Origin: a virus
Direction: 5' to 3' (one strand)
Length of the DNA stretch: 20,669 bases
IMG/VR virus record: IMGVR_UViG_3300037558_002260
Span: 1-20,669 of that record
Part shown: piece after piece, positions 7,344-19,540 of the stretch
Position numbering within the stretch: the stretch's first letter is position 1
Layout: every line of letters begins with the position of its first letter
Program-made: the position numbers and the translations under genes
The notes under the pieces: model-generated
Databases searched by the model: none
Seen by the model: the letters and a program-made list of their open reading frames with translations, nothing else
What the model was told of the DNA's origin: nothing

Positions 7344-9244
7344 TGGGTCTATTCAAAAAGTTAAAAAAAGCATTCAAGAAAGCCGTTGATGTAGTAGTTG
7401 GTGCGGTCACTGGTATAATCAGCGGCATAGGCAAAATATTCCAACCGTTTGGTTTCTCACCAGACATACCAGATTACGGATTTGATGAACAAGGTGGCAC
7501 ACAGGCAGATGCCATCCAAGGTGTACTGCTTAACAAGGACAGCGCCATTGCCCATGTACCTGTGGTATATGGCACAAGAATGGTTGGGGGAATAAGAGTT
7601 TTTGTTTCAACAAACGGTTCAACCAACCAATACCTTTATGTGGCACTGGTATTGGCAGAAGGACAAGTCAATGCGGCCACACAACTACTCATTGATGACA
7701 ACACAGTCACAATAAGCAGTCTTGACCATGGTGTTGAACGTACCTGTACCACAGGCAGACACAAAGACAGATTGAAAGCACAATTTTTTGACGGCAGAGA
7801 TGATCAGACGGTATCAAGCCTCTTGCAAGAAGCACCTAACTGGACCAGCAATCACAGATTGAGAGGTCTTGCCTACATTGCATTAAGATTTGAATGGAAA
7901 AAAATTGAAACTCAAACAGACGCAGAAAACAATCCTTTTGGTGGCGGCGTGCCAAATGTACGGGTAAAATTAGAAGGCAAAAAGGTATATGACGCCACAA
8001 CACTGACAGCAGATTCAACAACAGCACATGACACCGCATATGCGGACGAACCAACAACATTCACAGACAATCCTGTTTCTTGCCTTTTAGATTATCTTAG
8101 AAATCCAAGATTTGGCAAGAATCTACCAACCACAGCATTCGCGTTTGACACTTGGAAAACAGCGGCAGACCTTTGCAATCAAAACGTCAATTTTGGTACG
8201 GGCACAGAAAAAGCATTCACTTGTGATGCTGTTCTGGACACGGCACAGACATTGATGAACAACACAAAAATACAGTTGGCAGGATTCAGGGGCATAATGC
8301 CCTTCACACAGGGCAAGTACAGATTACTGATTGAACATGGTGGAGATGATTCAGACATCACTGCCACGCCAGCATCACCCAGCACAGTTTTCACCGTTGA
8401 CAATGACACCATAGTTGGTGGCATGACCTTGGTTGGAGAAGACAAGGAAAACAAGGTAAACAGATGTGTGGTCACTTACGTGGACCCAGATGCTGACTTC
8501 CAACCCAATCAAGTGATCTTTCCTGCCGCGGGTAGCAGTGATGACACAGCATTCCTTGCCGCTGACAACGGCATCAGGCTAGAGAAAAGCATAACATTGC
8601 CAACCGTGACCAGCAGGGTACAGGCATTGCAATACGCAGAGGTGTTCCTCAAGCGAAGCAGGGCCAGTAAACAGGTCAGTTTCCAGACCACCATAGCCAC
8701 CAGCAACGTCACAGTGGGTGATCTCGTACAGGTTGTCAACGAGCACCTGAGCCTCAGTCAGATCTTCAGGATTTCAGAAATAGTGGTCACTGAACAGGGC
8801 CAGATCGCCATCAATGCGTTTGAGCATCAGAGTGGCACCTATGCTGTCAACGCCAAGACCGCGGACATCACGAGACCCACCATCAGCCTGCCAGATCCTG
8901 CCTTGATAACGGCGCCAACCAATCTGACCTGTACATCAGGTTCAGCACAGAACTTGACGGGCACAGACACCACAGGCTACTTCAACACACCCAGCCTCAG
9001 CACGGTGCGTAGGATCAAGGTCGCATGGACGGCATCAACTGACCCGTTCGTGACGGAATACAGGATACAGTTCAAACTGAGTTCAGCATCAGACTTCACG
9101 GAAGCAGGCACCACCAATCTCACAGAATTTTTCTTGGCACCCGTGACACTGGCCGCACCGTACGATGTCAGGGTCGCCGCCAGGAACGAACTGGACAACC
9201 AGAGCAGTTTCGCCACCGTTTCAAACCACACAGTTTCAGCCTAA
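7343..9244 (+). CDS. Central tail-tip / host-specificity protein (gpJ-like)
   Basis: A 633-aa tail-tip protein. ATG 7343 in a TAATG overlap is chosen rather than an in-frame start 29 codons upstream that overlaps the previous gene. Residues 3-36 form an amphipathic, membrane-active helix (GLFKKLKKAFKKAVDVVVGA). Residues from about 71 (VPVVYGTRMVGGIRVFVS) open the hub-like core shared by gpJ/GTA 'megatron' proteins. Residues about 526-631 form a fibronectin type III-like domain (APTNLTC, VRRIKVAWTAS, FVTEYRIQFKLSS, YDVRVAARNELDNQSS). It is about half the usual gpJ length, so receptor binding is probably passed to the separate fibres at 13763-20669. G+C rises within its last third: by hand count 33/60 at 8641-8700, against 24/60 at 4201-4260. 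Confidence 0.82.
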   Translation: MGLFKKLKKAFKKAVDVVVGAVTGIISGIGKIFQPFGFSPDIPDYGFDEQGGTQADAIQGVLLNKDSAIAHVPVVYGTRMVGGIRVFVSTNGSTNQYLYVALVLAEGQVNAATQLLIDDNTVTISSLDHGVERTCTTGRHKDRLKAQFFDGRDDQTVSSLLQEAPNWTSNHRLRGLAYIALRFEWKKIETQTDAENNPFGGGVPNVRVKLEGKKVYDATTLTADSTTAHDTAYADEPTTFTDNPVSCLLDYLRNPRFGKNLPTTAFAFDTWKTAADLCNQNVNFGTGTEKAFTCDAVLDTAQTLMNNTKIQLAGFRGIMPFTQGKYRLLIEHGGDDSDITATPASPSTVFTVDNDTIVGGMTLVGEDKENKVNRCVVTYVDPDADFQPNQVIFPAAGSSDDTAFLAADNGIRLEKSITLPTVTSRVQALQYAEVFLKRSRASKQVSFQTTIATSNVTVGDLVQVVNEHLSLSQIFRISEIVVTEQGQIAINAFEHQSGTYAVNAKTADITRPTISLPDPALITAPTNLTCTSGSAQNLTGTDTTGYFNTPSLSTVRRIKVAWTASTDPFVTEYRIQFKLSSASDFTEAGTTNLTEFFLAPVTLAAPYDVRVAARNELDNQSSFATVSNHTVSA

Positions 9245-9253
9245 CTTAAATAC

Positions 9254-9267
9254 CACTGAGGTCAGTG
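9254..9267. promoter_or_regulatory. Palindrome overlapping the RBS of the 65-aa gene
   Basis: CACTGA (9254-9259) and TCAGTG (9262-9267) form a perfect inverted repeat around a central GG. The Shine-Dalgarno sequence GAGGT (9258-9262) of the gene starting at 9271 lies within it. It could be a protein-binding site on DNA or RNA, and a 2-nt loop makes a simple RNA hairpin unlikely. Confidence 0.4.
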
Positions 9268-9270
9268 AGC

Positions 9271-9468
9271 ATGAAACCTGAACAATTCATAACCAAGGTA
9301 CGGCAGTACGGATATTTCAAATGTGATGGCAAGACCGTCACGGGCAAGGGCAGACAGCGATTGTGCCAGGGCGATCCCAGGCATGACTGTCCGTTCGTGT
9401 TGCTACGTGTGAGGTACCTCACACACAAGGTGTTGCCAGATGGCAGGCTAGGGCCGCTTGACAAGTAG
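9271..9468 (+). CDS. Small hypothetical protein at the end of the tail operon
   Basis: A 65-aa basic protein. GAGGT 8 nt upstream favours ATG 9271 over the in-frame GTG at 9265. Codon choice (AAG, GGC, CAG, AGG) matches the neighbouring genes. Residues 16-45 contain three cysteines (FKCDG, RLCQGD, HDCPF), too few in a visible pattern to call a zinc finger, although a nearby histidine could make a fourth ligand. It follows the tail-tip gene by 26 nt and is read by the same transcript, which ends at the terminator at 9654. Its last 21 nt overlap the 3' end of a minus-strand gene. Function unknown. Confidence 0.6.
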   Translation: MKPEQFITKVRQYGYFKCDGKTVTGKGRQRLCQGDPRHDCPFVLLRVRYLTHKVLPDGRLGPLDK

Positions 9469-9600
9469 GCGTTTGTGCTTGGCCAATTCACGTCTCTTCT
9501 TTGTGTACTGACGTCTTCGTTCCGCTTCCTTGTGATGCACGGCATCGTGCAGTTGTCTCGTGTAGTTGTGTTGGTCCCTGATTCGTTGTTCGTTGTCCAT
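9448..9600 (-). CDS. Small highly basic protein on the opposite strand
   Basis: A 50-aa minus-strand ORF from ATG (complement of 9598-9600) to TAG (9448-9450). It begins MDNEQRIRDQHNY and continues with a charged helix (HHKEAERRRQYTKKRRELAK), so it is almost certainly one long basic alpha-helix with many Lys/Arg/His, suggestive of nucleic-acid binding. No family is recognised. The case for a real gene is a perfect sigma70 promoter, TTGACA-N18-TATAAT (9630-9635 and 9606-9611), ending 5 nt before the ATG, which would give a leaderless mRNA. A Shine-Dalgarno sequence is absent. It is the only convincing minus-strand gene in the window and converges with the tail operon, overlapping the 65-aa gene tail to tail. 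Confidence 0.6.
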   Translation of the reverse strand: MDNEQRIRDQHNYTRQLHDAVHHKEAERRRQYTKKRRELAKHKRLLVKRP

Positions 9601-9605
9601 GTGTG

Positions 9606-9635
9606 ATTATACACTATTCTTTGGCGCAGTGTCAA
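9606..9635 (-). promoter_or_regulatory. Consensus sigma70 promoter for the minus-strand gene
   Basis: On the minus strand TTGACA (9630-9635) and TATAAT (9606-9611) are both perfect and 18 bp apart. Transcription should begin about 6-8 nt past the -10, at or beside the ATG at 9600, giving a leaderless message. Confidence 0.75.
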
Positions 9636-9687
9636 GATGGCCTACTGCCATCTGAAGATTCGCTCTGCTCATCTTCGTTTTTTTTTT
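9635..9687 (+). terminator. Intrinsic terminator ending the tail operon, with a preceding hairpin
   Basis: GAAGAT (9654-9659) pairs with ATCTTC (9671-9676) over an 11-nt loop and is followed by G and ten Ts (9678-9687). A separate perfect 7-bp hairpin, AGATGGC with GCCATCT (9635-9641 / 9647-9653), abuts it upstream. Its 5' edge touches the -35 of the minus-strand promoter (9630-9635). Confidence 0.75.
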
Positions 9688-9724
9688 CTAGACAAGGACT
9701 TCATGTAGATTGAAAGATCGTACT

Positions 9725-9742
9725 CCACCTGTTAACAGGTGG
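9725..9742. promoter_or_regulatory. Perfect 18-bp palindrome, candidate operator
   Basis: CCACCTGTTAACAGGTGG reads the same on both strands. It lies about 90 bp upstream of the minus-strand -35 box and between two copies of GACTTCATGT. The length and symmetry suit a dimeric repressor site. As RNA it would form a hairpin only by opening its central bases. No T-run follows on either strand, so it is not a terminator. Confidence 0.5.
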
Positions 9743-9796
9743 GTGACTTCATGTGAGTTTGATGAGTCATCTCCAGATGCTGTGTTTCACGGGAGG

Positions 9797-9805
9797 ATTA
9801 TACCA
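9797..9805 (-). promoter_or_regulatory. Extended -10 promoter element (minus strand)
   Basis: Minus-strand TGGTATAAT is a TG-n-TATAAT extended -10. No -35 hexamer is recognisable at 16-18 bp, so it is weaker evidence than the other promoters. A leftward transcript would cross the palindrome at 9725-9742 and could reach the 50-aa gene. Confidence 0.35.
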
Positions 9806-10130
9806 ACCTCTAGCATCGCTTTCTTTACATCACGCGGTGGATTCGTGAATACCCGTTGTGCCTATGTGTGTGCCTGCGGACTGTCGCGTTCTTGCTGTGT
9901 GAGTGCTACGCTGTTCTGTGTCTGTGTGTGCCTATTGTTGCCTGTTCTAGAGTATATAGCATTGTGGTACCAGAAGTCAAATCTTTTCTGTTTAAACACC
10001 TTCTGTGTGCTTTTAAAGGTGTAAATATCTCAGCATTAGGCCGTGACTTACTCCTTGCAATGTTCGTCCCGCCTGATGTAAGGGAGTGCCTTTTCCATAT
10101 GCCATATTGTTCTGGTGCTCCCGCCCCCTC

Positions 10131-10138
10131 TATAAATA
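10131..10138 (+). promoter_or_regulatory. TATAAATA octamer (T4-type late promoter match)
   Basis: An exact TATAAATA, 127 nt upstream of the 10265 gene. The same octamer precedes a fibre gene at 13736-13743. One chance match per strand is expected in about 20 kb at this base composition. Confidence 0.3.
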
Positions 10139-10264
10139 CTGACGGACAGCACTTACGACACGGCTCCTATTACAGACGCGACGTAAAACCATATCGTGCG
10201 GTCCACTTATGAGCGTGGATCCTGTTCGCATCATGTATTGTTGCCTACAATCCTTTGACCAGCA

Positions 10265-10465
10265 ATGGGATCCACAACACACACAATGCGATTTGACAAA
10301 GGTGCCACAACATTTGATCTACAGGACACAGAGTTCCATGACAAGTACGAACTGTTTGACCACATACGGAGATCACACATCCGTCACAGGCCGCAACGAG
10401 ATGTGTGGCAAGACTGGAACGAACACCTCAAGGACAGCATAAACCAACATCACACACTGAAGTAG
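10265..10465 (+). CDS. Small hypothetical protein
   Basis: A 66-aa (ATG 10265) or 59-aa (ATG 10286) protein rich in Asp, His, Arg and Trp. The segment DKYELFDHIRRSH followed by DVWQDWNEHLKDS suggests two amphipathic helices. Codons (ACA, GAC, AAC, ATA) match the accessible phage genes, which is the main reason to accept it. No Shine-Dalgarno sequence precedes either start. A weak TACAAT box lies 13 nt before ATG 10265. The alternative frame 10209-10442 on the same strand is its shadow. Function unknown. Confidence 0.5.
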   Translation: MGSTTHTMRFDKGATTFDLQDTEFHDKYELFDHIRRSHIRHRPQRDVWQDWNEHLKDSINQHHTLK

Positions 10466-10588
10466 ATCTAACGTGTAGGTTGTAGAGACCCAGAATGCGT
10501 CAGCAGTTTGCGTAGGGTTGGTGTAGGATTGGGAGCCAAACGACAGCAGGATATGAACCGTATGACTGCATCAAAGAGTACTATAAAC

Positions 10589-10671
10589 GGTGGCATAGAT
10601 AGGTTAAAGGCGCTCCTTGTATCATCCAGATTCAAATACACAACATCTAGTCATAGCCACCGTATGCCACC
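10589..10671. repeat. 9-bp inverted repeat with a 65-nt loop
   Basis: GGTGGCATA (10589-10597) is matched by TATGCCACC (10663-10671). The intervening 65 nt have no clear gene. It could close an RNA domain or mark a DNA-binding site in the 235-bp gene-poor stretch 10466-10700. In that stretch the only other thing seen is a weak 65-codon frame starting with TTG at 10508, which I do not accept. Confidence 0.4.
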
Positions 10672-10701
10672 ATTCCCGCCAATATTGATGGTAATTGATG
10701 G

Positions 10702-10729
10702 TTGACATCCTGCAGATCTGTGCTATAAT
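10702..10729 (+). promoter_or_regulatory. Sigma70 promoter P1 (consensus, extended -10)
   Basis: TTGACA (10702-10707) and TGCTATAAT with -10 at 10724-10729, 16 bp apart. Its first bases, TTGACATCCTGC, are shared with P3 at 11143. Transcription would start near 10736, 87 bp or so before P2, so it supplies a long leader or a separate short RNA before the 10842 gene. Confidence 0.75.
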
Positions 10730-10787
10730 CTATTAATAATCCTACAGCCATGACCAATTGCTCCACCATTTGTACAAGAGCATCTAC

Positions 10788-10816
10788 TTGACAACATTGA
10801 CATCCTATGCTATACT
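10788..10816 (+). promoter_or_regulatory. Sigma70 promoter P2
   Basis: TTGACA (10788-10793), 17-bp spacer, TATACT (10811-10816) preceded by TGC as an extended -10. A second TTGACA sits at 10797-10802 inside the spacer. It shares TTGACAACATTGAC and ATGCTATA with P4 at 11288. It serves the gene at 10842, whose leader carries AAGGAG. Confidence 0.8.
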
Positions 10817-10841
10817 AATAGATAACAAAAGGAGAAAACAA

Positions 10842-11141
10842 ATGAAGAGAACAGTACCATATGATTTTGAATCATATTCAGCAATCGCAACAGACCCTAG
10901 GGGCATAGTGCAGAGCATGACCATAACAAAGCAACAAGCACACGACCTAGTCGCACAGGGATACATGATGTCACCAGATCGTAAACACTTCGCAGGTAGG
11001 GAGAATGGTGAACCCAGATACAACAAGTTGGCCAAGGTGGTCACCATGCCATTTGATCAATGGGAGACGATGCTTCATCAATTGAATCCTAGACAGCCTA
11101 GGTGGAACTTCCATAAAGGAGAATGGGCACAGGCGAGATAG
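10842..11141 (+). CDS. Hypothetical protein of the accessory island
   Basis: A 99-aa protein. AAAGGAG about 7 nt upstream and promoter P2 just before it (-10 at 10811-10816) fix ATG 10842; longer in-frame alternatives would begin upstream of the promoter. Recognisable parts are a first strand/helix region (YDFESYSAIATDPRGIVQSM), a helix TITKQQAHDLVAQGY and an MMSPDRKHFAGRENG loop, then a C-terminal part ending in WNFHKGEWAQAR. The 'TKQQAHDLVAQGY' helix resembles pieces of small DNA-binding or regulatory phage proteins, but no family can be named. It stands alone in its transcript, with P3 starting directly after its stop. Confidence 0.75.
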   Translation: MKRTVPYDFESYSAIATDPRGIVQSMTITKQQAHDLVAQGYMMSPDRKHFAGRENGEPRYNKLAKVVTMPFDQWETMLHQLNPRQPRWNFHKGEWAQAR

Positions 11142-11142
11142 G

Positions 11143-11171
11143 TTGACATCCTGCTAGGGGTGTAGTATAAT
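11143..11171 (+). promoter_or_regulatory. Sigma70 promoter P3
   Basis: TTGACA (11143-11148), 17-bp spacer, perfect TATAAT (11166-11171). It starts 1 bp after the stop of the preceding gene. Transcription is expected to begin near 11178, the first base of a strong hairpin. Confidence 0.8.
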
Positions 11172-11177
11172 ATTTTT

Positions 11178-11226
11178 GGACGGTGCACCTCCCATGGTGG
11201 CCAATATCAAAAGGAGGAGGCCGTCC
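11178..11226 (+). ncRNA. Candidate 5'-terminal hairpin RNA from P3
   Basis: GGACGG (11178-11183) pairs with CCGTCC (11221-11226), and CCTCC (11188-11192) continues into GGAGG (11216-11220), with a 4-nt bulge on the 5' side and a 23-nt loop. The stem starts exactly at the predicted +1 of P3 and buries an AAGGAGGAGG Shine-Dalgarno-like sequence. A 5-bp stem GCTGG/CCAGC (11238-11242 / 11255-11259) follows. No T-run is seen. It may be a small RNA, a protective 5' structure or a leader that controls translation downstream. Confidence 0.45.
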
Positions 11227-11328
11227 CCTGAATCTAGGCTGGCCCACGCCCATTCCAGCACTGCAAAAATTTCCTACAGATTGGGGGTTGACAACATTGA
11301 CCTTCCATGCTATAATAACACAATATGA
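11194..11328 (+). CDS. Possible 44-aa leader/small ORF
   Basis: The frame begins MVANIKRRRPSPESRL and ends with TGA overlapping the next ATG (ATGA, 11325-11328), the kind of junction used for coupled translation. Against it, no Shine-Dalgarno sequence precedes the ATG, which lies in the loop of the hairpin at 11178-11226, and the C-terminal part is just promoter P4 translated. It is either a short coupled ORF or chance. Proteomics or conservation would be needed to decide. Confidence 0.3.
   Translation: MVANIKRRRPSPESRLAHAHSSTAKISYRLGVDNIDLPCYNNTI
11288..11316 (+). promoter_or_regulatory. Sigma70 promoter P4
   Basis: TTGACA (11288-11293), 17-bp spacer, TGC-TATAAT (-10 at 11311-11316): a full consensus with extended -10. 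The -10 ends 8 nt before ATG 11325, so the mRNA should have almost no leader. It is a near copy of P2. Confidence 0.85.
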
Positions 11329-11567
11329 AGACGTATCTTGACAACCAGGAGTACATTGACAGCCTCATAGCCAACCAGAGCAGGGTCACGCCAGCACAGC
11401 ATCTCGCCGTGTTTGAACGTGCCTGCGAGGCGCTACGGGCCGCGATGACTGACCGCGAACACCTGTGGGGCCGTAGCAAACGGTATCGCCTGTGGAGCAT
11501 CTGCGTCACCATACGCAACAGACTGAGACAACACAAGGAGCAAAATGACCAATCAAAAATATCTTAA
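11325..11567 (+). CDS. Hypothetical 80-aa protein, near-leaderless
   Basis: An 80-aa protein, helical and basic, with segments MKTYLDNQEYIDSLIANQSR, HLAVFERACEALRAAM and a positively charged C-terminus (WSICVTIRNRLRQHKEQ). The ATG lies about 8 nt past the P4 -10 box, and no Shine-Dalgarno sequence is possible, so translation would begin at the 5' end of the message. Higher G+C than the early structural genes. Its stop lies 23 nt inside the next gene. No family recognised. A role in regulating or working with the helix-turn-helix peptide next door is only suggested by adjacency. Confidence 0.65.
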   Translation: MKTYLDNQEYIDSLIANQSRVTPAQHLAVFERACEALRAAMTDREHLWGRSKRYRLWSICVTIRNRLRQHKEQNDQSKIS

Positions 11568-11748
11568 CGCGAAAGCGATGCGAACTCCGTTCTTTCGCCA
11601 GTACGGCATAACCATGGCAGAGGCGGGCAGGCGCATGGGCGTCAGCAAGGAGACCATCAGGCAGAGGTACGGCAAGGGACAGGATCCCATGCAACCACAC
11701 CCCAGGGCTGAACTGCAGGGCAAATTTCTCAGACGGGAGGCCAAATGA
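11545..11748 (+). CDS. Small helix-turn-helix DNA-binding protein
   Basis: A 67-aa protein. Residues about 21-43 (GITMAEAGRRMGVSKETIRQ) form a clear helix-turn-helix: helix, G-V-S turn, then recognition helix beginning KETIRQ. This is the fold used by small phage repressors, excisionase-like activators and the DNA-binding parts of terminase small subunits. AAGGAG 4 nt upstream of the ATG supports the start. It overlaps the preceding gene by 23 nt and its stop overlaps the next ATG (ATGA), so the three are one operon under P4. It is a natural candidate to bind the island's own promoters or palindromes, but that is inference. A DNA-end-binding role is an alternative. Confidence 0.75.
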   Translation: MTNQKYLNAKAMRTPFFRQYGITMAEAGRRMGVSKETIRQRYGKGQDPMQPHPRAELQGKFLRREAK

Positions 11749-12416
11749 TCACACGTAGCACGGTGGAGGCGGTGCAACACCATGCACAGCAGGAGGCGTT
11801 CAAGGAGTGGCGAGAGTACCATGCACGACAGACACCCATGGCGGTGTACTATGACAGCAAGGAACAGCATCTTTCAGCCATAGCACGGCAGGCACAGCCA
11901 GGCACCATCTCACAATTTGGTGTTGATGGCGGCGCCACACTGAGACTGCTGAGTTCACAATTTGGCAAGAGGCGTGTGTGGGGATTTGACGCCTGGCACA
12001 AGAAGGGACCTGGACTGCCAGAGACCTGGACGGGCAACATAGACCACAGCAGGCACTTCACATGGACACGCGAAGAGTACAAGCGACTGAGGGCCAGTAT
12101 GCCCAAGAACGTGCGTCTCAAGGTGGGCCTGTTTGAACACGACAAGGTACAGCACACCATGGGCGACGCCCCAGCCAGTGTGATACACATAGACGCAGAC
12201 ACATATTCGCCAGCAAAACTGGTGTTGGAGGCCATGAGCCGCAACATAGTGCCTGGCACCAGGATAGTGTTTGACGAATACGCCAACTATCCAGGATGGA
12301 GGCATCATGAACACAAGGCCTGGCATGAGTTCTGTGTGGACCACAAGGTCAAGTACGAATACACAGGCATCGCACACATGGATGTGAGTGTGCTGGTAAA
12401 ATCAATACTCAAATAG
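11745..12416 (+). CDS. SAM-dependent methyltransferase, TylF/MycF-like
   Basis: A 223-aa class I methyltransferase. Diagnostic points are FGVDGG (residues 58-63, the SAM-binding glycine loop), GFDAW (80-84) and LPETW (91-95), the 'GFDSF-GLPE-W' signature of TylF (macrocin O-methyltransferase) proteins, then HIDADTYS (148-155), the metal-binding Asp cluster, GTRIVFDEY (171-179), and HEHKAWHEF (188-196). These proteins O-methylate sugars. In marine phages related enzymes are thought to modify glycans, here perhaps virion or host-envelope sugars. It begins in an ATGA overlap with the helix-turn-helix gene, with GGGAGG 4 nt upstream. G+C is high (35/60 by hand count at 12001-12060), suggesting an acquired gene. 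All key residues look intact. Confidence 0.85.
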   Translation: MITRSTVEAVQHHAQQEAFKEWREYHARQTPMAVYYDSKEQHLSAIARQAQPGTISQFGVDGGATLRLLSSQFGKRRVWGFDAWHKKGPGLPETWTGNIDHSRHFTWTREEYKRLRASMPKNVRLKVGLFEHDKVQHTMGDAPASVIHIDADTYSPAKLVLEAMSRNIVPGTRIVFDEYANYPGWRHHEHKAWHEFCVDHKVKYEYTGIAHMDVSVLVKSILK

Positions 12417-12417
12417 G

Positions 12418-12446
12418 TTGTGTGTGACCCAGGATCGTGTTATACT
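12418..12446 (+). promoter_or_regulatory. Sigma70 promoter P5 (extended -10)
   Basis: TTGTGT (12418-12423), 17-bp spacer, TGT-TATACT (-10 at 12441-12446). The -35 has two or three mismatches but the -10 has the TG extension. It lies 12 nt before ATG 12459, so the leader would be about 6 nt long. Confidence 0.6.
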
Positions 12447-12458
12447 AAATACTATTAT

Positions 12459-12974
12459 ATGAAACATCGTAAGGGATTTACTGGATGGAACAAAGGAAAG
12501 ACTGGCCTGGCGGCTGGTTGGACTGAGGCCAGGCGCCAACATCAGAGCCGTCTGATGGCACAATGGCGCAAGGACTATCCTGATTGCAATAAGACCATCC
12601 AGTACAAGGTGGGACCTGACCCAGAGGTGCAAAAGCACTACTACCGTTTTCTCCGTAGCAGGTGCCAGGCCAGGTATTGGCAACAAGAATGGACAATATC
12701 ATGGGAAGACTATCTTGATTTTTTCAAGACTGCCTGGGGCAAGTGGGGAAGGAACACCAGGAAAGGTGCCAACCCAAGTCGTGATGACCATCTAAATCTG
12801 ACTAGAGTGGACACACGGCAAGGTTGGCATCTTGACAATGTGCGATTGATGCCAAGGACAGAGGCCATGCAACGCAAAAGACACGTTGGACCAGACGGAT
12901 TCATAATCAACAGACAGGAAAGGAATCCTGCCTTGCGTAAACCAAGAAAAAAACAAAAAAGGAAAACAACATGA
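12459..12974 (+). CDS. HNH/NUMOD-like nuclease-related protein
   Basis: A 171-aa, strongly basic protein. Residues 6-40 (KGFTGWNKGKTGLAAGWTEA, then RRQHQSRLM) resemble NUMOD3-type DNA-binding motifs of homing endonucleases. Residues 62-141 carry RFLRSRCQARYWQQEWTISW, a GK-W-GR loop, then LNLTRVDTRQGWHLDNVRL and a final PRTEAMQRKR, the 'L-x-R-x-D-...-G-W/Y-...-N-V-R' pattern common to phage HNH-type endonucleases. No full H-N-H triad is obvious, so catalysis is uncertain. The basic tail (KPRKKQKRKT) suits nucleic-acid binding. The start at 12459 is nearly leaderless after P5. An in-frame longer form would begin upstream of the promoter. It ends in an ATGA overlap with the next gene. Confidence 0.6.
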   Translation: MKHRKGFTGWNKGKTGLAAGWTEARRQHQSRLMAQWRKDYPDCNKTIQYKVGPDPEVQKHYYRFLRSRCQARYWQQEWTISWEDYLDFFKTAWGKWGRNTRKGANPSRDDHLNLTRVDTRQGWHLDNVRLMPRTEAMQRKRHVGPDGFIINRQERNPALRKPRKKQKRKTT

Positions 12975-13159
12975 AACAGAAGATGATAGAACTACAGGTG
13001 ATGGAGGCACAGATGATGTGTTCCATAATTGACACAGCCAGCAAGAGAGGTGTGTTCGCCGCACAGGACATGGCGCCAGTTGGTGCACTGTTCAACAAAC
13101 TTAACGCCAAGATAGCGGAGTTGACACCAAAGAAGGAAAAGGATGACACAGACCAATAG
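12971..13159 (+). CDS. Small hypothetical protein (62 aa)
   Basis: A 62-aa helical protein beginning MKQKMIELQVMEAQMMCSI, with an FAAQDMAPVGALFNKLNAKI helix and a charged tail. It starts in an ATGA overlap with the HNH-like gene and has AAGGA upstream. It resembles the small 'helix-loop-helix' proteins scattered in marine phages, of unknown function. It ends 17 nt inside the next gene. It may be an accessory to the adjacent HNH-like protein or unrelated. Confidence 0.65.
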   Translation: MKQKMIELQVMEAQMMCSIIDTASKRGVFAAQDMAPVGALFNKLNAKIAELTPKKEKDDTDQ

Positions 13160-13544
13160 TGATCAACTCAAGGTAGCACAGATATACGAACGGTTTGCGG
13201 AACACGTCAAACTGTACGACAAACCTGTCAGGAACGACAAATGGATCTGGAAGGCAGTGGATGAAATGACCCCGCAACAGTTCGTGTACCTGATACACTT
13301 CGCCAGGGACAACAAGTTCTGGAACATAGACATTGAATCATGGGTTGATGAGGTGTGTGACAGGGATCCTTTCTGGATAAGACAGACCAAAGACAAGATG
13401 AAGACACGTCACAACAACAACATGATCTGGAAAATACTGATGTTGGCACGTGAGGTGATGGGACAGAGAATCAAACACGCCAACGCACCAATCAACAGAT
13501 TATTTTTCCGTGAAACACACCTTGAACCTGAAAACATCTATTAA
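13143..13544 (+). CDS. Hypothetical protein of the accessory island (133 aa)
   Basis: A 133-aa mostly helical protein rich in Trp (NDKWIWKAVDEMTP, NKFWNIDIESWVDEV, DPFWIRQTKDKMK), with AGAAGGA upstream of the ATG. There is no recognised family. The aromatic pattern suggests a compact protein-interaction or DNA-binding domain. It overlaps both neighbours (17 nt and 35 nt), so it belongs to the P5 operon. An enzyme signature is not visible. Confidence 0.65.
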   Translation: MTQTNSDQLKVAQIYERFAEHVKLYDKPVRNDKWIWKAVDEMTPQQFVYLIHFARDNKFWNIDIESWVDEVCDRDPFWIRQTKDKMKTRHNNNMIWKILMLAREVMGQRIKHANAPINRLFFRETHLEPENIY

Positions 13545-13740
13545 AGATAATCCTGAGGACATAGTCAGCAAGGTTGCACCACCGTACACATTGATAGCCA
13601 GTTTCTATGATCCAAATATTGGATGGAAGATTGCCACAGACTACATGATTATCACCTGTTTTGAAAAAGAACAAAAAGTTATACTGCAATATCCAGATTC
13701 AGATAAGACACAACAACAAGCACAAAAAGTGAAAATATAA
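13510..13740 (+). CDS. Small hypothetical protein (76 aa, GTG start)
   Basis: A 76-aa frame beginning at GTG 13510 and overlapping the preceding gene by 35 nt, with no Shine-Dalgarno sequence. Central strand pattern ASFYDPNIGWKIATDYMIITCFEKEQKVILQY suggests a small beta-sheet protein, ending in a Gln-rich tail. The codon pattern is phage-like and the frame is the only one covering 13545-13740, but the start is uncertain and could be further in. Function unknown. It ends just before the promoter-like octamer of the fibre block. Confidence 0.5.
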   Translation: MKHTLNLKTSIKDNPEDIVSKVAPPYTLIASFYDPNIGWKIATDYMIITCFEKEQKVILQYPDSDKTQQQAQKVKI

Positions 13741-13743
13741 ATA
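13736..13743 (+). promoter_or_regulatory. TATAAATA, candidate T4-type late promoter for the fibre genes
   Basis: An exact TATAAATA 7 nt before TAGGAG and 20 nt before ATG 13763, followed by TCATTATTAG. The equivalent site at 14443 (AATAAATATCATTGTTA) precedes the paralogous gene. The spacing gives the short leader seen at T4 late promoters. Confidence 0.45.
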
Positions 13744-13762
13744 TCATTATTAGGAGTTATTG

Positions 13763-14440
13763 ATGCCAAAAGCAAAACTAGTCACAAGAACAAGAACCAC
13801 AAGCAACGTCACAGCAGACAACCTCAACAAGGGGGCGGCATTGGAATTCTCAGAATTGGATTCAAACCTTATCAACCTACGAGACCAAACCTTTGGTGTG
13901 GTGGCAGATGATTCAGCGACCATACAGGTTGGAGCGGACAGTGTGTTGTACATACAGGGCGGTCAAAACGTGACCACGTCAACGACAAGTGATGGTGTTA
14001 TAAAGATAGATGTCGCTGGTGACGGCAACAGTCTTGGAAACATATCAGGTACAGGAGACACATTGAGTTCAAGCGGTTCAACCATAAACTTTGACGATCC
14101 TGTACAGATCAGCATCGCTGGTTCCACAGGCACTGACATTGGAAACATCGCAAGATTTGGTCAAAGCAGTAATCTAGATTTCAATCACCAAGGCAGTTTG
14201 ACAGGCGTGTTCGCAGTTTATGGTGATGACGCACAGACGGCCACAGGCGGTAGGCCATTCACAATTAATCTTGATGGAGTCCATGAAGGCTGTGAAGTTG
14301 GATTGGCAACTTACAATTCAAGTCAAGTGCCAACTACATATACTCCAGGTCTTTTGATATCTATAACAGACAACGGATACAAGCCTGCCTACTATGATGG
14401 CTCCAATTGGAGATATGTTCATGACAACTCTACCGTATAA
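13763..14440 (+). CDS. Tail-fibre/structural protein, paralogue of the 14478 gene
   Basis: A 225-aa protein. TAGGAG sits 6 nt before ATG 13763, which is preferred over the in-frame TTG at 13760. Residues about 3-55 (VTRTRTTSNVT, NLNKGAALEFSELDSNLINL, then RDQTFGVVADDS) match the N-terminal module of the next gene almost residue for residue, and a following piece (IQGGQNVTTSTTSDG) equals a repeated unit of the long fibre. The middle is a Gly/Ser/Thr-rich beta segment, and the end (YYDGSNWRYVHDNS) is a typical fibre C-terminus. It likely forms or anchors a fibre at the tail tip. Confidence 0.75.
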   Translation: MPKAKLVTRTRTTSNVTADNLNKGAALEFSELDSNLINLRDQTFGVVADDSATIQVGADSVLYIQGGQNVTTSTTSDGVIKIDVAGDGNSLGNISGTGDTLSSSGSTINFDDPVQISIAGSTGTDIGNIARFGQSSNLDFNHQGSLTGVFAVYGDDAQTATGGRPFTINLDGVHEGCEVGLATYNSSQVPTTYTPGLLISITDNGYKPAYYDGSNWRYVHDNSTV

Positions 14441-14477: not shown

Positions 14478-14819
14478 ATGCCAACAAAGGCCGCGATTGT
14501 CACAAGAGGACAGTCATCCAGTACTTTAACGAGTCAGAATCTCAACAAAGGATCTGCACTTACATTTGAAGATATTGATTCAACACTGATCAATCTCCGT
14601 GATGCCACTTTTGGCATACAAGCGGATGATTCAACAACACAGAATATATCACAAGGCGATACCATAATCGTCAAGGGTGGCACAGGGGTCACAACTTCAA
14701 CATCAGGTTCAACTGTGACTATAAACTCCACGGCAGACGCCGCAATAAATATTGACGGTGGAGATGCCGCCAGCACATATGGTGGACTTACAAGCATAAA
14801 CGGAGGAGACGCAACATAA
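14478..14819 (+). CDS. Short tail-fibre protein, paralogue of the 13763 gene
   Basis: A 113-aa protein sharing the 13763 N-terminal module (VTRGQSSSTLTSQNLNKGSA, then FEDIDSTLINLRDATFG) and the IVKGGTGVTTSTSGS unit. The end is a poly-Gly/Ala/Asp, possibly triple-stranded, segment (INIDGGDAASTYGG, then INGGDAT), as in marine phage fibre stems. It lacks the large distal part of its paralogue, so it may be a shortened copy or a connector between baseplate and long fibre. AAGGAG lies 8 nt upstream. Its stop overlaps the next ATG (TAATG), coupling it to the long fibre. Confidence 0.7.
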   Translation: MPTKAAIVTRGQSSSTLTSQNLNKGSALTFEDIDSTLINLRDATFGIQADDSTTQNISQGDTIIVKGGTGVTTSTSGSTVTINSTADAAINIDGGDAASTYGGLTSINGGDAT

Positions 14820-17800
14820 TGCCAACACAGATACAAATTAGACGAGATTCAGCCGCAGATTGGACATCAAACAATCCAACACTGGCACAGGGAGAGTTTG
14901 GTTGGGAGACAGACACAAACAGATTCAAGATAGGTGATGGTTCAAGCAACTGGCAAAGCCTTGCCTATGCTTCAGATGGTGACACAGCAGGCATAACTTT
15001 CGTTGGTGATGATTCATCAGGCACACTTGTTTCACAAAATGAAACATTCAAGATAGCAGGTGGCACAAACATAACCACTGCTGTATCAGGTGACACAGTC
15101 ACAATCACAGGTGCAGGCATTTCAGCCTCAAGCACAGACACACTAACAAACAAAACTTTTGATGCAGAAGGCACAGGCAATGCCCTATCAAATGTTGATG
15201 TTGCAAATTTGAAATCAGGTGTACTTGACACAGACATCAGTTCTGTATCAGGCAGTGATGACACATTGGCTTCTGCCAAAGCAATCAAGACATACGTTGA
15301 TGCACAGATACAGACCAAAGACAACTCAGACGAGATCACTGAAGGTTCATCAAACCTTTACTTCACTAACGCCAGAGCAGATGCTAGAATAACGAACGCA
15401 TTGAAAGATGAAGACAACATGGCAAGTGACAGTGCAACTCATGTACCATCACAACAGTCAGTGAAAGCATATGTTGACGCAGGTGACTTGAGTCTTATTG
15501 ACGAAGACAACTTCTCAACTGACTCAGCCTCAAGACCACCTTCACAGCAATCTGTCAAGGCATACGTAGACGCACAGGATGCCGCAATAGCATCAGACAC
15601 ATTGACACTGACAAATAAAACATTTGATGCAGAAGGCACAGGTAACTCACTTTCAAATGTTGATGTAGCAAATTTAAAATCAGGTGTTCTAGACACAGAC
15701 ATTTCAAGTGTCAGTGGTAGCGATGACACAATAGCAAGTGCAAAAGCGATCAAAACTTATGTTGACGCACAAATAGCCACAAAAGATAATTCAGATGAAA
15801 TAACAGAAGGTTCTACCAACTTATATTTCACAAATGCAAGAGCGGATGCTAGGATAACAAATGCACTCAAAGACGAAGACGCAATGTCATCAGATAGTGC
15901 AACTCATGTACCATCACAGCAGTCAGTCAAAGCCTATGTTGATGCACAAGATGCCAACATAGCCAGTGACACCTTAACACTGACAAATAAAACATTTGAT
16001 GTAGAAGCAACAGGAAACAGTATTTCAAATATTGATGTTGCTGATCTTAAATCAGGTGTTTTAGACACAGATATTTCAAGTGTTTCAGCATCAGACGACA
16101 CCGTTGCTTCTGCCAAAGCAATCAAAACTTATGTAGACGCACAGATAGCCACAAAAGACGCATTGAGTGAATTGAGTGGAGACACAGATGATGTAAGTGA
16201 AGGTTCAACTAATCTTTATTTCACAAATGCCAGAGCAGACGCTAGGATAACAAATGCCCTAGTTGATGAAGACAACATGGCATCAAATTCAGCAACAAAA
16301 CTACCATCACAACAGTCAGTGAAAGCATACGTTGACGCAGAAGTGGCAGGCGTTGTTGATTCAGCACCAAGTGCCTTGAACACATTGAATGAACTGGCGG
16401 CGGCATTGGGAGATGATTCAAACTTCGCCACAACAACTTCAACAGCATTGGGCAACAGATTAAGAATAGATGTCAACAACCAAGGATTGACTTCCACACA
16501 GAAAACAAATGCCGCGACAAACCTAGGTTTGAACACAGTGGCAACTTCAGGTGCATATTCAGACCTTTCTGGAACACCAACCATACCAAGCAACAACAAC
16601 CAACTGACAAATGGTGCAGGTTTCATAACAGATTCAAACATAACGGTTGTGGGTGATGATTCATCTGGTGTCACATTCAGCACAAAGGACAATGACAACT
16701 TAAAAATAGCAGGTGGTACTAATATCACAACTGCGGTATCAGGAGACACAGTGACGATCACTGGTCCTGACACATCAAGTTTCATAACAGCAAGTTCAAC
16801 AACAACATTGACCAACAAAACATTTGATGTTGAAGGAACTGGCAACAGTATCTCAAACATTGATGTGGCAGACCTAAAGTCAGGTGTGTTGGACACAGAC
16901 ATATCAAGTGTCAGTGGCAGTGATGACACAATAGCATCAGCCAAAGCAATCAAAACGTATGTTGATGCCCAAGTGGCGACAAAAGACAACAGTGATGAGA
17001 TCACTGAAGGTTCAACTAATTTATATTTCACAAATGCCAGAGCAGATGCCAGAATAGCGGCCAACATCATTGATGAAGATGCGATGGGTACAGATAGTGA
17101 CACAAGAGCACCAAGTCAACAAAGTGTCAAGGCTTACATAGCAACCCAGATAGCCACAAAAGATAATTCAGATGAAATAACAGAAGGATCAACTAATCTA
17201 TATTTCACAAATGCAAGAGCAGATGCCAGAATAACAAATGCACTCAAAGACGAAGATAATTTTGCTTCAGACAGTGCCACTCATGTACCATCACAGCAAT
17301 CAGTTAAAGCATATGTTGACGCACAAGATGCCAACATAGCCAGTGACACTCTTACTTTCACAAACAAAACATTTGATGTTGAGGCAACAGGTAATTCAAT
17401 ATCAAACATTGATGTTGCTGATCTTAAATCAGGTGTACTAGACACAGACATTTCAAGTGTGGCAGGTACAGACACTACACTTGCTTCTGCAAAAGCGATC
17501 AAGACTTATGTAGATGCACAGGTGGCAACTAAAGACAACACAGATGAGATAACAGAAGGTTCAACTAACCTTTACTTCACGAATGCAAGGGCAGATGCTA
17601 GGATCACGGCGGCGTTGATTGACGAAGACAATATGTCATCTAACAGTGCTACTAGATTACCTAGTCAACAAAGTGTCAAGGCATACGTTGACGCAGGTGA
17701 CCTTAGCCTTATTGATGAAGACAATTTCTCAACAGACTCAGCAACTAGACCACCATCACAGCAATCAGTCAAGGCATATATTGCTACACAGATAGCAACC

Positions 17801-19540
17801 AAAGACAACACAGATGAGATCACAGAAGGTTCATCAAATCTATACTACACAGATGCAAGAGCACAGGCAGTTTCAATAAACAACCTTTCAGAAGACTCAT
17901 CACCACAACTTGGTGGCGCCCTTGATGTCAACGGACAGGACATCGTCACAACATCAAATGCCAACATAGAACTTGCCCCACACGGCACAGGCAAGACAGT
18001 TTTAAAAGGAAACACAAATCCAGGAACACTGATATTCAATTGTGAAAGCAACTCACATGGACAGACAGTGATAGCACAACCACACAGTGCTGGAGTCACA
18101 AACACACTGACACTGCCAGCGGGCGGTGACCAGGAATTGGCAGGAACAATTGCCACACAGACATTCACGAACAAGACCTTGACATCACCAGTGTTGAACA
18201 CAGGTGTTTCAGGAACAGCAATCAAAGACGAGGACGATATGTCCAGCAACAGTGCCACGCACTTGGCCACACAACAGTCTATCAAGGCATATGTTGATGC
18301 AAACGCAGGTGGCGGAGGCAGTGCGATCACTGTGCAGGATGAAGGTTCATCACTGTCAACGGCGGCCACAACGATCAACTTCGTTGGTGCAGGTGTTGCC
18401 GCTTCAGGCACGGGAGCAACCAAGACCATCACCATAGGTGCTTCAAACGCCAACACGGGTGACTTCACTTTCACGGGCAACGATTTAAGCACATCAAGTT
18501 CAAACGCAGATATGGAACTGGGCACGTCAGGCACTGGTGCCATAGTGTTGAAGGCCAACGGTGGAAGCACATCAAACATCCAGTCAACTGGCAACAGCAG
18601 ATACGAAAACTCAAATATGCTGTACTACGAGGATCTGTCACACACGGCGGGTAGCAAGAGGCTGTATGCCAACAACGCAATCCTAAGATTGAAACTTGAC
18701 GGCAACGACTCCAGTTCAAGCAACGTAAGATTAAGGGCATTGATGGGATTCAACGACATTGACCTCAACGGGACGGCACTTACCAACACAGGTGGTTCGC
18801 GTGGTCCAGTTGCAGGAACTTTTGGCAATGACATAGTCAACACTAGTGCAGACGCGGCGACGCTTGGCAATGTGGGCGGTGCCAGTGCTTACAACTACTT
18901 CTACGATTACAGCGGCGGAACCAATCCAACCATTAACATTTCAAATGCTTTTGGTTTTAGAAACTTTTCACCCGCGGAGTATGACGGCGTGGATGGCACA
19001 GTAGGAAATGCTTATGGATACTACTGTGGAGGACCAACATCATATGGTGGAAGCAGTCTTACTGTTACCAACAGTTATGGTTTTTATTACAAAGCAAACT
19101 CAGGCCCCACATTCACCAATGACCCATATTTCCTATACACCACTGATGATTCAGTAAGAAATAGAATTGGTGCTGTTGAGAAGTTCAACGAATATTCATA
19201 CAACACAACACACAGCAGTAATGGTGTATACATTGTTGACTATGCAAACGGAAACCTACAGACGGTGACCCTTGGAGCCAACATCACAGGATTCGCAATG
19301 AGCGGCTTCCCAACAAGCATTAAGCAGTCAGTGGGTATAACACTGTACCTAGTCCAAGACGGCACAGGATCAAGGACTATGACTTTCTCTGCCACAGGCG
19401 GCGAAACATTCAAGTTCGCGAACGGTGGCAATTCAAGTTCAGTAAGTAGTGCTAATGACATACAGGCGGTTTATATATTTTCAAGATACAACGGATCAAG
19501 CAACACCTACTATTGGACACTTGGTCCAGTTTACAGTTAA
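14819..19540 (+). CDS. Giant repetitive tail fibre (1573 aa)
   Basis: A 1573-aa fibre. Residues about 1-45 (QIQIRRDSAADW, then LAQGEFGWETDTNRFKIGDG) match the Mtd_N-type domain that attaches such fibres to the tail tip. Two GDDSSG...GGTNITTAVSGDTV units lie near 14990-15110 and 16640-16770. The central part holds five long modules (TNKTFD... to ...SQQSVKAYVDA) with at least nine SQQSVKAY-type ends and several EGSTNLYFTNARADARI blocks. A non-repetitive C-terminal third (residues about 1150-1573, Gly/Tyr/Phe-rich, ending YYWTLGPVYS) is the probable receptor-binding tip. The C-terminal third lacks the repeats and is the part expected to vary between relatives. GGAGGAG lies 10 nt before the ATG. 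Confidence 0.88.
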   Translation: MPTQIQIRRDSAADWTSNNPTLAQGEFGWETDTNRFKIGDGSSNWQSLAYASDGDTAGITFVGDDSSGTLVSQNETFKIAGGTNITTAVSGDTVTITGAGISASSTDTLTNKTFDAEGTGNALSNVDVANLKSGVLDTDISSVSGSDDTLASAKAIKTYVDAQIQTKDNSDEITEGSSNLYFTNARADARITNALKDEDNMASDSATHVPSQQSVKAYVDAGDLSLIDEDNFSTDSASRPPSQQSVKAYVDAQDAAIASDTLTLTNKTFDAEGTGNSLSNVDVANLKSGVLDTDISSVSGSDDTIASAKAIKTYVDAQIATKDNSDEITEGSTNLYFTNARADARITNALKDEDAMSSDSATHVPSQQSVKAYVDAQDANIASDTLTLTNKTFDVEATGNSISNIDVADLKSGVLDTDISSVSASDDTVASAKAIKTYVDAQIATKDALSELSGDTDDVSEGSTNLYFTNARADARITNALVDEDNMASNSATKLPSQQSVKAYVDAEVAGVVDSAPSALNTLNELAAALGDDSNFATTTSTALGNRLRIDVNNQGLTSTQKTNAATNLGLNTVATSGAYSDLSGTPTIPSNNNQLTNGAGFITDSNITVVGDDSSGVTFSTKDNDNLKIAGGTNITTAVSGDTVTITGPDTSSFITASSTTTLTNKTFDVEGTGNSISNIDVADLKSGVLDTDISSVSGSDDTIASAKAIKTYVDAQVATKDNSDEITEGSTNLYFTNARADARIAANIIDEDAMGTDSDTRAPSQQSVKAYIATQIATKDNSDEITEGSTNLYFTNARADARITNALKDEDNFASDSATHVPSQQSVKAYVDAQDANIASDTLTFTNKTFDVEATGNSISNIDVADLKSGVLDTDISSVAGTDTTLASAKAIKTYVDAQVATKDNTDEITEGSTNLYFTNARADARITAALIDEDNMSSNSATRLPSQQSVKAYVDAGDLSLIDEDNFSTDSATRPPSQQSVKAYIATQIATKDNTDEITEGSSNLYYTDARAQAVSINNLSEDSSPQLGGALDVNGQDIVTTSNANIELAPHGTGKTVLKGNTNPGTLIFNCESNSHGQTVIAQPHSAGVTNTLTLPAGGDQELAGTIATQTFTNKTLTSPVLNTGVSGTAIKDEDDMSSNSATHLATQQSIKAYVDANAGGGGSAITVQDEGSSLSTAATTINFVGAGVAASGTGATKTITIGASNANTGDFTFTGNDLSTSSSNADMELGTSGTGAIVLKANGGSTSNIQSTGNSRYENSNMLYYEDLSHTAGSKRLYANNAILRLKLDGNDSSSSNVRLRALMGFNDIDLNGTALTNTGGSRGPVAGTFGNDIVNTSADAATLGNVGGASAYNYFYDYSGGTNPTINISNAFGFRNFSPAEYDGVDGTVGNAYGYYCGGPTSYGGSSLTVTNSYGFYYKANSGPTFTNDPYFLYTTDDSVRNRIGAVEKFNEYSYNTTHSSNGVYIVDYANGNLQTVTLGANITGFAMSGFPTSIKQSVGITLYLVQDGTGSRTMTFSATGGETFKFANGGNSSSVSSANDIQAVYIFSRYNGSSNTYYWTLGPVYS
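15133..17870 (+). repeat. Tandem module array inside the giant fibre
   Basis: Protein modules begin near 15133, 15596, 15966, 16798 and 17344, each starting T-L-x-x-T/F-NKTFD and containing LKSGVLDTDISSV, SAKAIKTYVDAQ, EGS-x-NLY-FTNARADAR and SQQSVKAY. Module lengths differ: about 370-380 nt for the shorter ones and 460-550 nt for those with extra EGS/SQQ units. A degenerate sixth copy (TNKTLTSPVLNTGVSG to TQQSIKAYVDANAG) lies near 18160-18300. Third-codon positions differ freely between copies, so the copies are old or selected at protein level. Confidence 0.85.

Follow-up and report, generated by a model that had tools for sequence, protein, structure and literature searches.

The window analyzed here, the whole of a 20.7-kb viral record from a tailed phage, lacks genome ends and carries downstream of its J (tail-tip) gene a conserved array of near-consensus sigma70 promoters that most likely marks the early region of the phage rather than an island within a block of late genes. 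We consider it likely that one explanation covers the main features of this array, namely early promoters, leaderless gene starts, two promoters (P2 and P4) copied from one cassette and a noncoding RNA, here termed RNA B, made from P3; from sequence comparison we infer transcription, its early timing and action as RNA. In this explanation the host sigma70-type RNA polymerase would read the array at once on phage entry, the array occupying the non-structural region that separates J from the fibre genes. Each unit is close to consensus and typically has an extended -10 (GG-TTGACR-N16/17 ending in GTGY-TATAAT); it would drive one or a few small early genes, and many of these promoters would set the transcription start on the ATG, yielding leaderless mRNA. 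From P3, a noncoding transcript some 110 nt long would arise instead, composed of a 5' hairpin and a 3' module of fixed length that ends at P4.

By sequence, the source is a member of an uncultured phage clade that is distant kin of pelagiphages such as HTVC112P: the capsid protein is 47-50% identical to those of Pelagibacter phages HTVC112P, 111P, 202P and 026P, and J is about 32-34% identical to theirs. The genes for the tape measure, the distal tail protein and J follow one another in the window. HTVC112P shares homologous capsid and J proteins and a similar structural gene order; however, its early genes lie elsewhere and no GTGYTATAAT site is found in it. Positions 9200-13200 have no DNA similarity to named phages, and a search for tRNA and tmRNA genes recovered none. 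Scans of a bacterial and archaeal genome collection with J and with the end of the RNA B 3' module returned no relative of either, and hence no host or prophage was found. From the J end across the promoter array (8300-13250), the G+C content is 43-56%, versus about 39% among the head and tail genes, and positions 14819-19540 encode a fibre-like protein of 1573 aa with repeats such as SQQSVKAYVDA.

The preliminary description had reported five near-consensus promoters, P1-P5. P1-P4 are indeed present with the hexamers and spacers listed in Table 1; P5 resembles them in its -10 element and departs from them in its -35. The TG extension reported for four of the five -10 elements is likewise borne out, being present in P1, P2, P4 and P5 and absent from P3. 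Thus, P1, P2 and P4 have the full architecture of sigma70 extended -10 promoters (both hexamers at 16-18 nt, with TGn), P3 is without TGn and P5 has a poor -35. P0 on the opposite strand, the leaderless register and the noncoding element behind P3 had been overlooked. The density of such sites is far above expectation: in 2000 dinucleotide shuffles of positions 10601-11400 (800 bp), the mean number of sites matching 12/12 was 0.0005 against three observed, and that of sites matching at least 11/12 was 0.011 against four observed, with no shuffle equaling the observed counts. Terminator-like sites in the window do not exceed the shuffle level.

Table 1. Promoters, genes and noncoding elements of the array, in window coordinates
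Feature	Position	Strand	Description
P0	9635-9606	-	TTGACA-18-TATAAT; 12/12 sigma70 hexamer match
P1	10702-10729	+	TTGACA-16-TATAAT; 12/12; TG-extended -10
P1 transcript start element	10734-10755	+	22 nt; TAATAATCCTACAGCCATGACC; conserved
P2	10788-10816	+	TTGACA-17-TATACT; 11/12; template TTGACAACATTGAC; TG-extended -10
99-aa ORF of P2	10842-11141	+	AGGAG ribosome site; no family match
P3	11143-11171	+	TTGACA-17-TATAAT; 12/12; no TG extension
RNA B 5' hairpin	11178-11226	+	From predicted P3 start; GGACGGU/GCCGUCC stem; conserved GUGGCCAAUAUC
RNA B 3' module	11225-11287	+	63 nt; CCCCUGAA...AAAAAUUUCC...GGGGG, up to the P4 -35
P4	11288-11316	+	TTGACA-17-TATAAT; 12/12; P2 template; TG-extended -10
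80-aa ORF	11325-11567	+	ATG 8 nt past the P4 -10
67-aa ORF	11545-11748	+	sigma70 region-4-like helix-turn-helix
TylF-like methyltransferase	11745-12416	+	Homologue in L045, 50% identity
P5	12418-12446	+	Weak -35, TTGTGT (3/6); extended -10 CGTGTTATACT fits the family

To place these promoters in a wider context, we used an alignment of J proteins that yielded 80 loci, 70 of which entered the promoter counts. Downstream of J, 97 promoters with at most one mismatch occur in 191 kb, as opposed to 25 in the 478 kb up to the J end, a 9.7 times greater density, some of the 70 loci being close kin, so that the counts are in part interdependent. For the motif and ATG analyses, identical promoters were dropped. 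The family shares the motif GG-TTGACR...GTGY-TATAAT, which in the class with a 16-nt spacer reads aGG-TTGACR-...-YGTGY-TATAAT. In this class the GTGY element, which was not a selection criterion, is conserved at 81% (G), 94% (T), 94% (G) and 93% (C/T). The structural stretch of locus L102 is devoid of GTGY-TATAMT sites. The family has in common with general sigma70 extended -10 promoters the TTGACA, the 16-17-nt spacer and the TGn ahead of TATAAT, and is distinguished from them by a clade-specific GG before the -35, the GTGY before the -10 and spacer motifs held in common within a genome.

These spacer motifs bear on the proposal that the promoters were built from two copied templates. Over the 9 nt following the -35, 26 within-genome pairs are alike at 6/9 or more positions, against 10.5 in shuffles (0 of 2000 shuffles reach this), and the mean identity within genomes is 2.85 versus 2.57 (11/2000 shuffles). 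This greater likeness within than between genomes supports copying or homogenization of promoter cassettes. P2 and P4, identical at 27 of 31 positions, are probably copies of one cassette. The other template is weaker: P1 and P3 do begin with the same GGTTGACATCCTGC (14/14), but the homologous P1 of locus L045 has an ATTGAC template in place of TCCTGC. L045 is the best syntenic partner of the window, and its methyltransferase came to light only after a single-sequence scan with the window protein had found no relatives. It retains P1 (5558), P2 (5645), P3 (6111) and P4 (6248) in the window's order, so that the motifs are conserved in a relative carrying the same gene. The two P2 promoters have TTGACAACATTGACA and TATGCTATACTAATAG in common, and the two P4 promoters ATTGACCTT and CATGCTATAATAACACA. 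The expected recurrence of the cassettes in relatives is also seen, L045 holding two TTGACAACATTGAC and three TTGACACGATTGAC promoters. Judged by this conservation, the view that the promoters are real is supported.

The spacing between these promoters and their genes reveals a further regularity. Among the 97 distinct promoters, 33 have an ATG exactly 5-6 nt past the -10, while all other offsets from 0 to 44 hold 0-7 each (background 1.7% per position; binomial p ~5e-24), and the peak recurs in a second promoter set, with two mismatches (8/41). As sigma70 transcription usually starts about 7 nt past the -10, the start codon is probably at the very 5' end of these mRNAs, and many promoters of the family probably produce leaderless mRNAs, to judge from spacing alone. 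Within the window, the register is found at P0, where the ATG of a 50-aa ORF (9600-9448) lies 5 nt past the -10, and nearly so at P4, whose 80-aa ORF is predicted to be leaderless or close to it. Several relatives have, a few codons behind the first ATG, a Shine-Dalgarno sequence and then another start; the first ATG may thus begin a short leader ORF that runs up to the main gene. At L008:13116 and 13409, L007:12698 and L080:8984, a short ORF with a leaderless ATG holds the main gene's Shine-Dalgarno and stops at its start codon, an arrangement that suggests translational coupling. The promoter-plus-ATG pattern also reaches beyond the clade: it was detected in 64 viral stretches, most of which have few other such promoters.

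The position of the array in the genome is best seen in contig G003 (32.4 kb), which contains loci L008 and L029 and repeats at its end the roughly 77 bp around its P1 with which it starts; the genome is thus probably whole. J is followed there by the promoter region and the fibre genes, then by two small ORFs, the gene for the large terminase, the head genes and the tail genes, after which J returns; the head and tail genes were placed via synteny with the window. The interval from J to the fibre genes is the sole stretch without structural or packaging genes, and was hence taken as the early region; most of its proteins have no family match, so that the label "early" comes from the gene map alone. 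This map contradicts the earlier placement of the promoters inside a structural block, and makes an early region a better description than an independently expressed island.

Such an island, comparable to a moron, would consist of accessory genes inserted with their own promoters between late genes and expressed on their own. The G+C content above that of the head and tail genes, the provision of every gene with its own promoter and the difference between the window and L045 in the gene behind P2 would agree with it; yet it is unlikely, as the promoter region is found again past J in many relatives and an island would leave G003 without any early region. A regulatory reading of the same region, in which a phage repressor would bind the repeated spacer sequences as its operators and the array would be a regulated immunity region, strikes us as slightly less probable still. 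It could draw on the likeness of spacers within genomes and on the conserved 22-nt element behind P1, but copying alone could yield the spacer similarity, and neither an integrase nor a repressor was recognized in the parts searched. The 22-nt element itself recurs as a TAATCCT......TGACC-like stretch behind P1-type promoters in the window, L045, L038, L011 and L029, and has diverged in L065 and L007. P2 lies close behind; possible roles of the element are those of an operator or of the beginning of a short RNA. Matches to it outside the clade were set aside as chance. That the array as a whole is a product of chance or of faulty assembly is very improbable: short motifs are common, but the shuffles, the conservation and the ATG register speak against chance, and the comparative data already contradict this reading. 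A second viral record, identical to the window over 9200-11547, counts against an assembly error, though it is not independent evolutionary evidence.

Within the early region, P3 appears to drive a conserved structured noncoding element, not a gene. Whole or in part, RNA B occurs in seven contigs besides the window sequence. It follows a P3-type promoter in L029, L011, L045, L038 and L046, is represented by the 3' module only in L065, and is present as two tandem copies in L023 (contig G002), each with its own promoter and with differing stem and loop, the second without a clear 3' module. The stem variants are altered on both arms (GGACGGUC/GGCCGUCC, GGACGUCA/UGACGUCC and GGACGCC/GGCGUCC), and the conserved hairpin loop, GGCCAAUAUC, is largely kept. 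All eight sequences have a 3' module of 62-63 nt. On permuting the stem arms, 53/56 pairs were observed against a mean of 48.6, with 120 of 5040 permutations as good or better, a result that is suggestive rather than overwhelming. The total folding energy is unremarkable, and the 3' module has no well-supported fold, its hairpin models being weak and a pseudoknot having been judged by eye only. No Rfam 15 covariance model matched window positions 9200-13800, L046, L029, L045 or L038. When 2.9 million viral contigs were scanned with a pattern for the module end, this clade and five further matches (L107-L110 and L112) were recovered, the five being assumed as a group to be chance. L025, L028, L030 and L031 also looked like chance matches. 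As for an antisense target, the same contigs contain few 9-nt matches to the loop complement outside the element, and these lack conservation. Coding capacity was likewise rejected: one frame of the 3' module is open, yet relative to it the frame of the conserved loop differs between the window and L029, and a single ORF hence does not explain both. RNA B is probably to be read as a new phage noncoding RNA without a known family.

What such an RNA might do is a more tentative matter. Possibly, though with rather less than even odds, it is an undescribed trans-acting RNA that employs the GGCCAAUAUC loop and the AAAAAUWUCC strand in taking over the host or in counter-defence, the early region around it consisting of often leaderless genes expressed from copied extended -10 cassettes. 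The proximity of a gene, within 40 nt downstream in the window, and the failure to find a terminator-like site behind the element would fit a cis-acting leader, such as a riboswitch or attenuator, of the gene behind P4. This we hold to be unlikely, inasmuch as P4 directly behind the element is predicted to start a separate transcript, the downstream genes vary among relatives, and in L029 and L011 the P4-type promoter leads into another noncoding stretch. Somewhat more doubtful is a role of the P3-P4 stretch as DNA or primer, i.e., as a replication origin at which the transcript from P3 would pair with the G-rich and A-rich 3' module in an R-loop. The conserved noncoding sequence with its A-rich run ahead of GGGGG and the strong promoter directly upstream are compatible with an origin, but the GC skew of G003 has no turn at the element, and the kept loop, the two-sided stem changes and the tandem copies in G002 better fit an RNA. 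The stretches behind the P4-type promoters at L029:590-690 and L011:6610-6720 have GGACAGGGC- and GGTGCA-type inverted repeats in place of a gene and are possibly a second small RNA.

The probable early region invites comparison with the host-takeover modules of SPO1-type phages. To our knowledge, little is known of host takeover by uncultured aquatic phages such as these. In the SPO1-type and kayvirus modules, as here, small early genes are clustered behind strong host-type promoters, which in kayviruses lie in the long terminal repeats (PMC6445280). The strong host-type promoters ahead of small genes are thus shared with takeover modules; the long terminal repeats of the SPO1 type and their genomes of 130-140 kb are not, as the array is flanked by J and the fibre genes, in a genome of about 32 kb, and the end overlap of G003 is only 77 bp. 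The leaderless register and the conserved RNA element also set the present case apart from those modules. The lambda cI mRNA is a leaderless message. Of the mRNAs of Lactococcus cremoris, about 13% are leaderless (PMC10986495). The predicted mRNAs resemble these in that the start codon would be the transcript 5' end; here, however, leaderlessness would be a trait of a whole phage promoter family, deduced from spacing alone. RNA B resembles the phage-encoded small RNAs treated in a review (PMC12197685) in being short, noncoding, encoded in a phage genome and, as predicted, promoter-driven, and differs from those in its lack of an Rfam family and its restriction to this clade. No description of this promoter array or of RNA B was found in the open-access library searched.

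Early genes, many of which match nothing known, can be sought in metagenomes by a simple sequence rule, namely a start codon that coincides with the predicted transcription start. Studies of phage riboregulation gain a concrete target in the conserved noncoding element that sits midway in the array, and the within-genome spacer motifs provide a test of how phages copy and homogenize promoters. Two further observations concern the relatives. The gene after a P5-type promoter at L029:783-1760 encodes a protein without a Pfam match that has a HELWHAID metallopeptidase-like motif. About 250 bp past J, there is a second conserved promoter-like element, TTGACA-18-TATATACTTGTGA, followed by iteron-like AGGCAAACAC direct repeats (L008:12140, L011:3400, L038:3150, L007:12138, L009:4505 and L010:10190). 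Its orientation varies by genome, being reversed in L034, L040 and L052.
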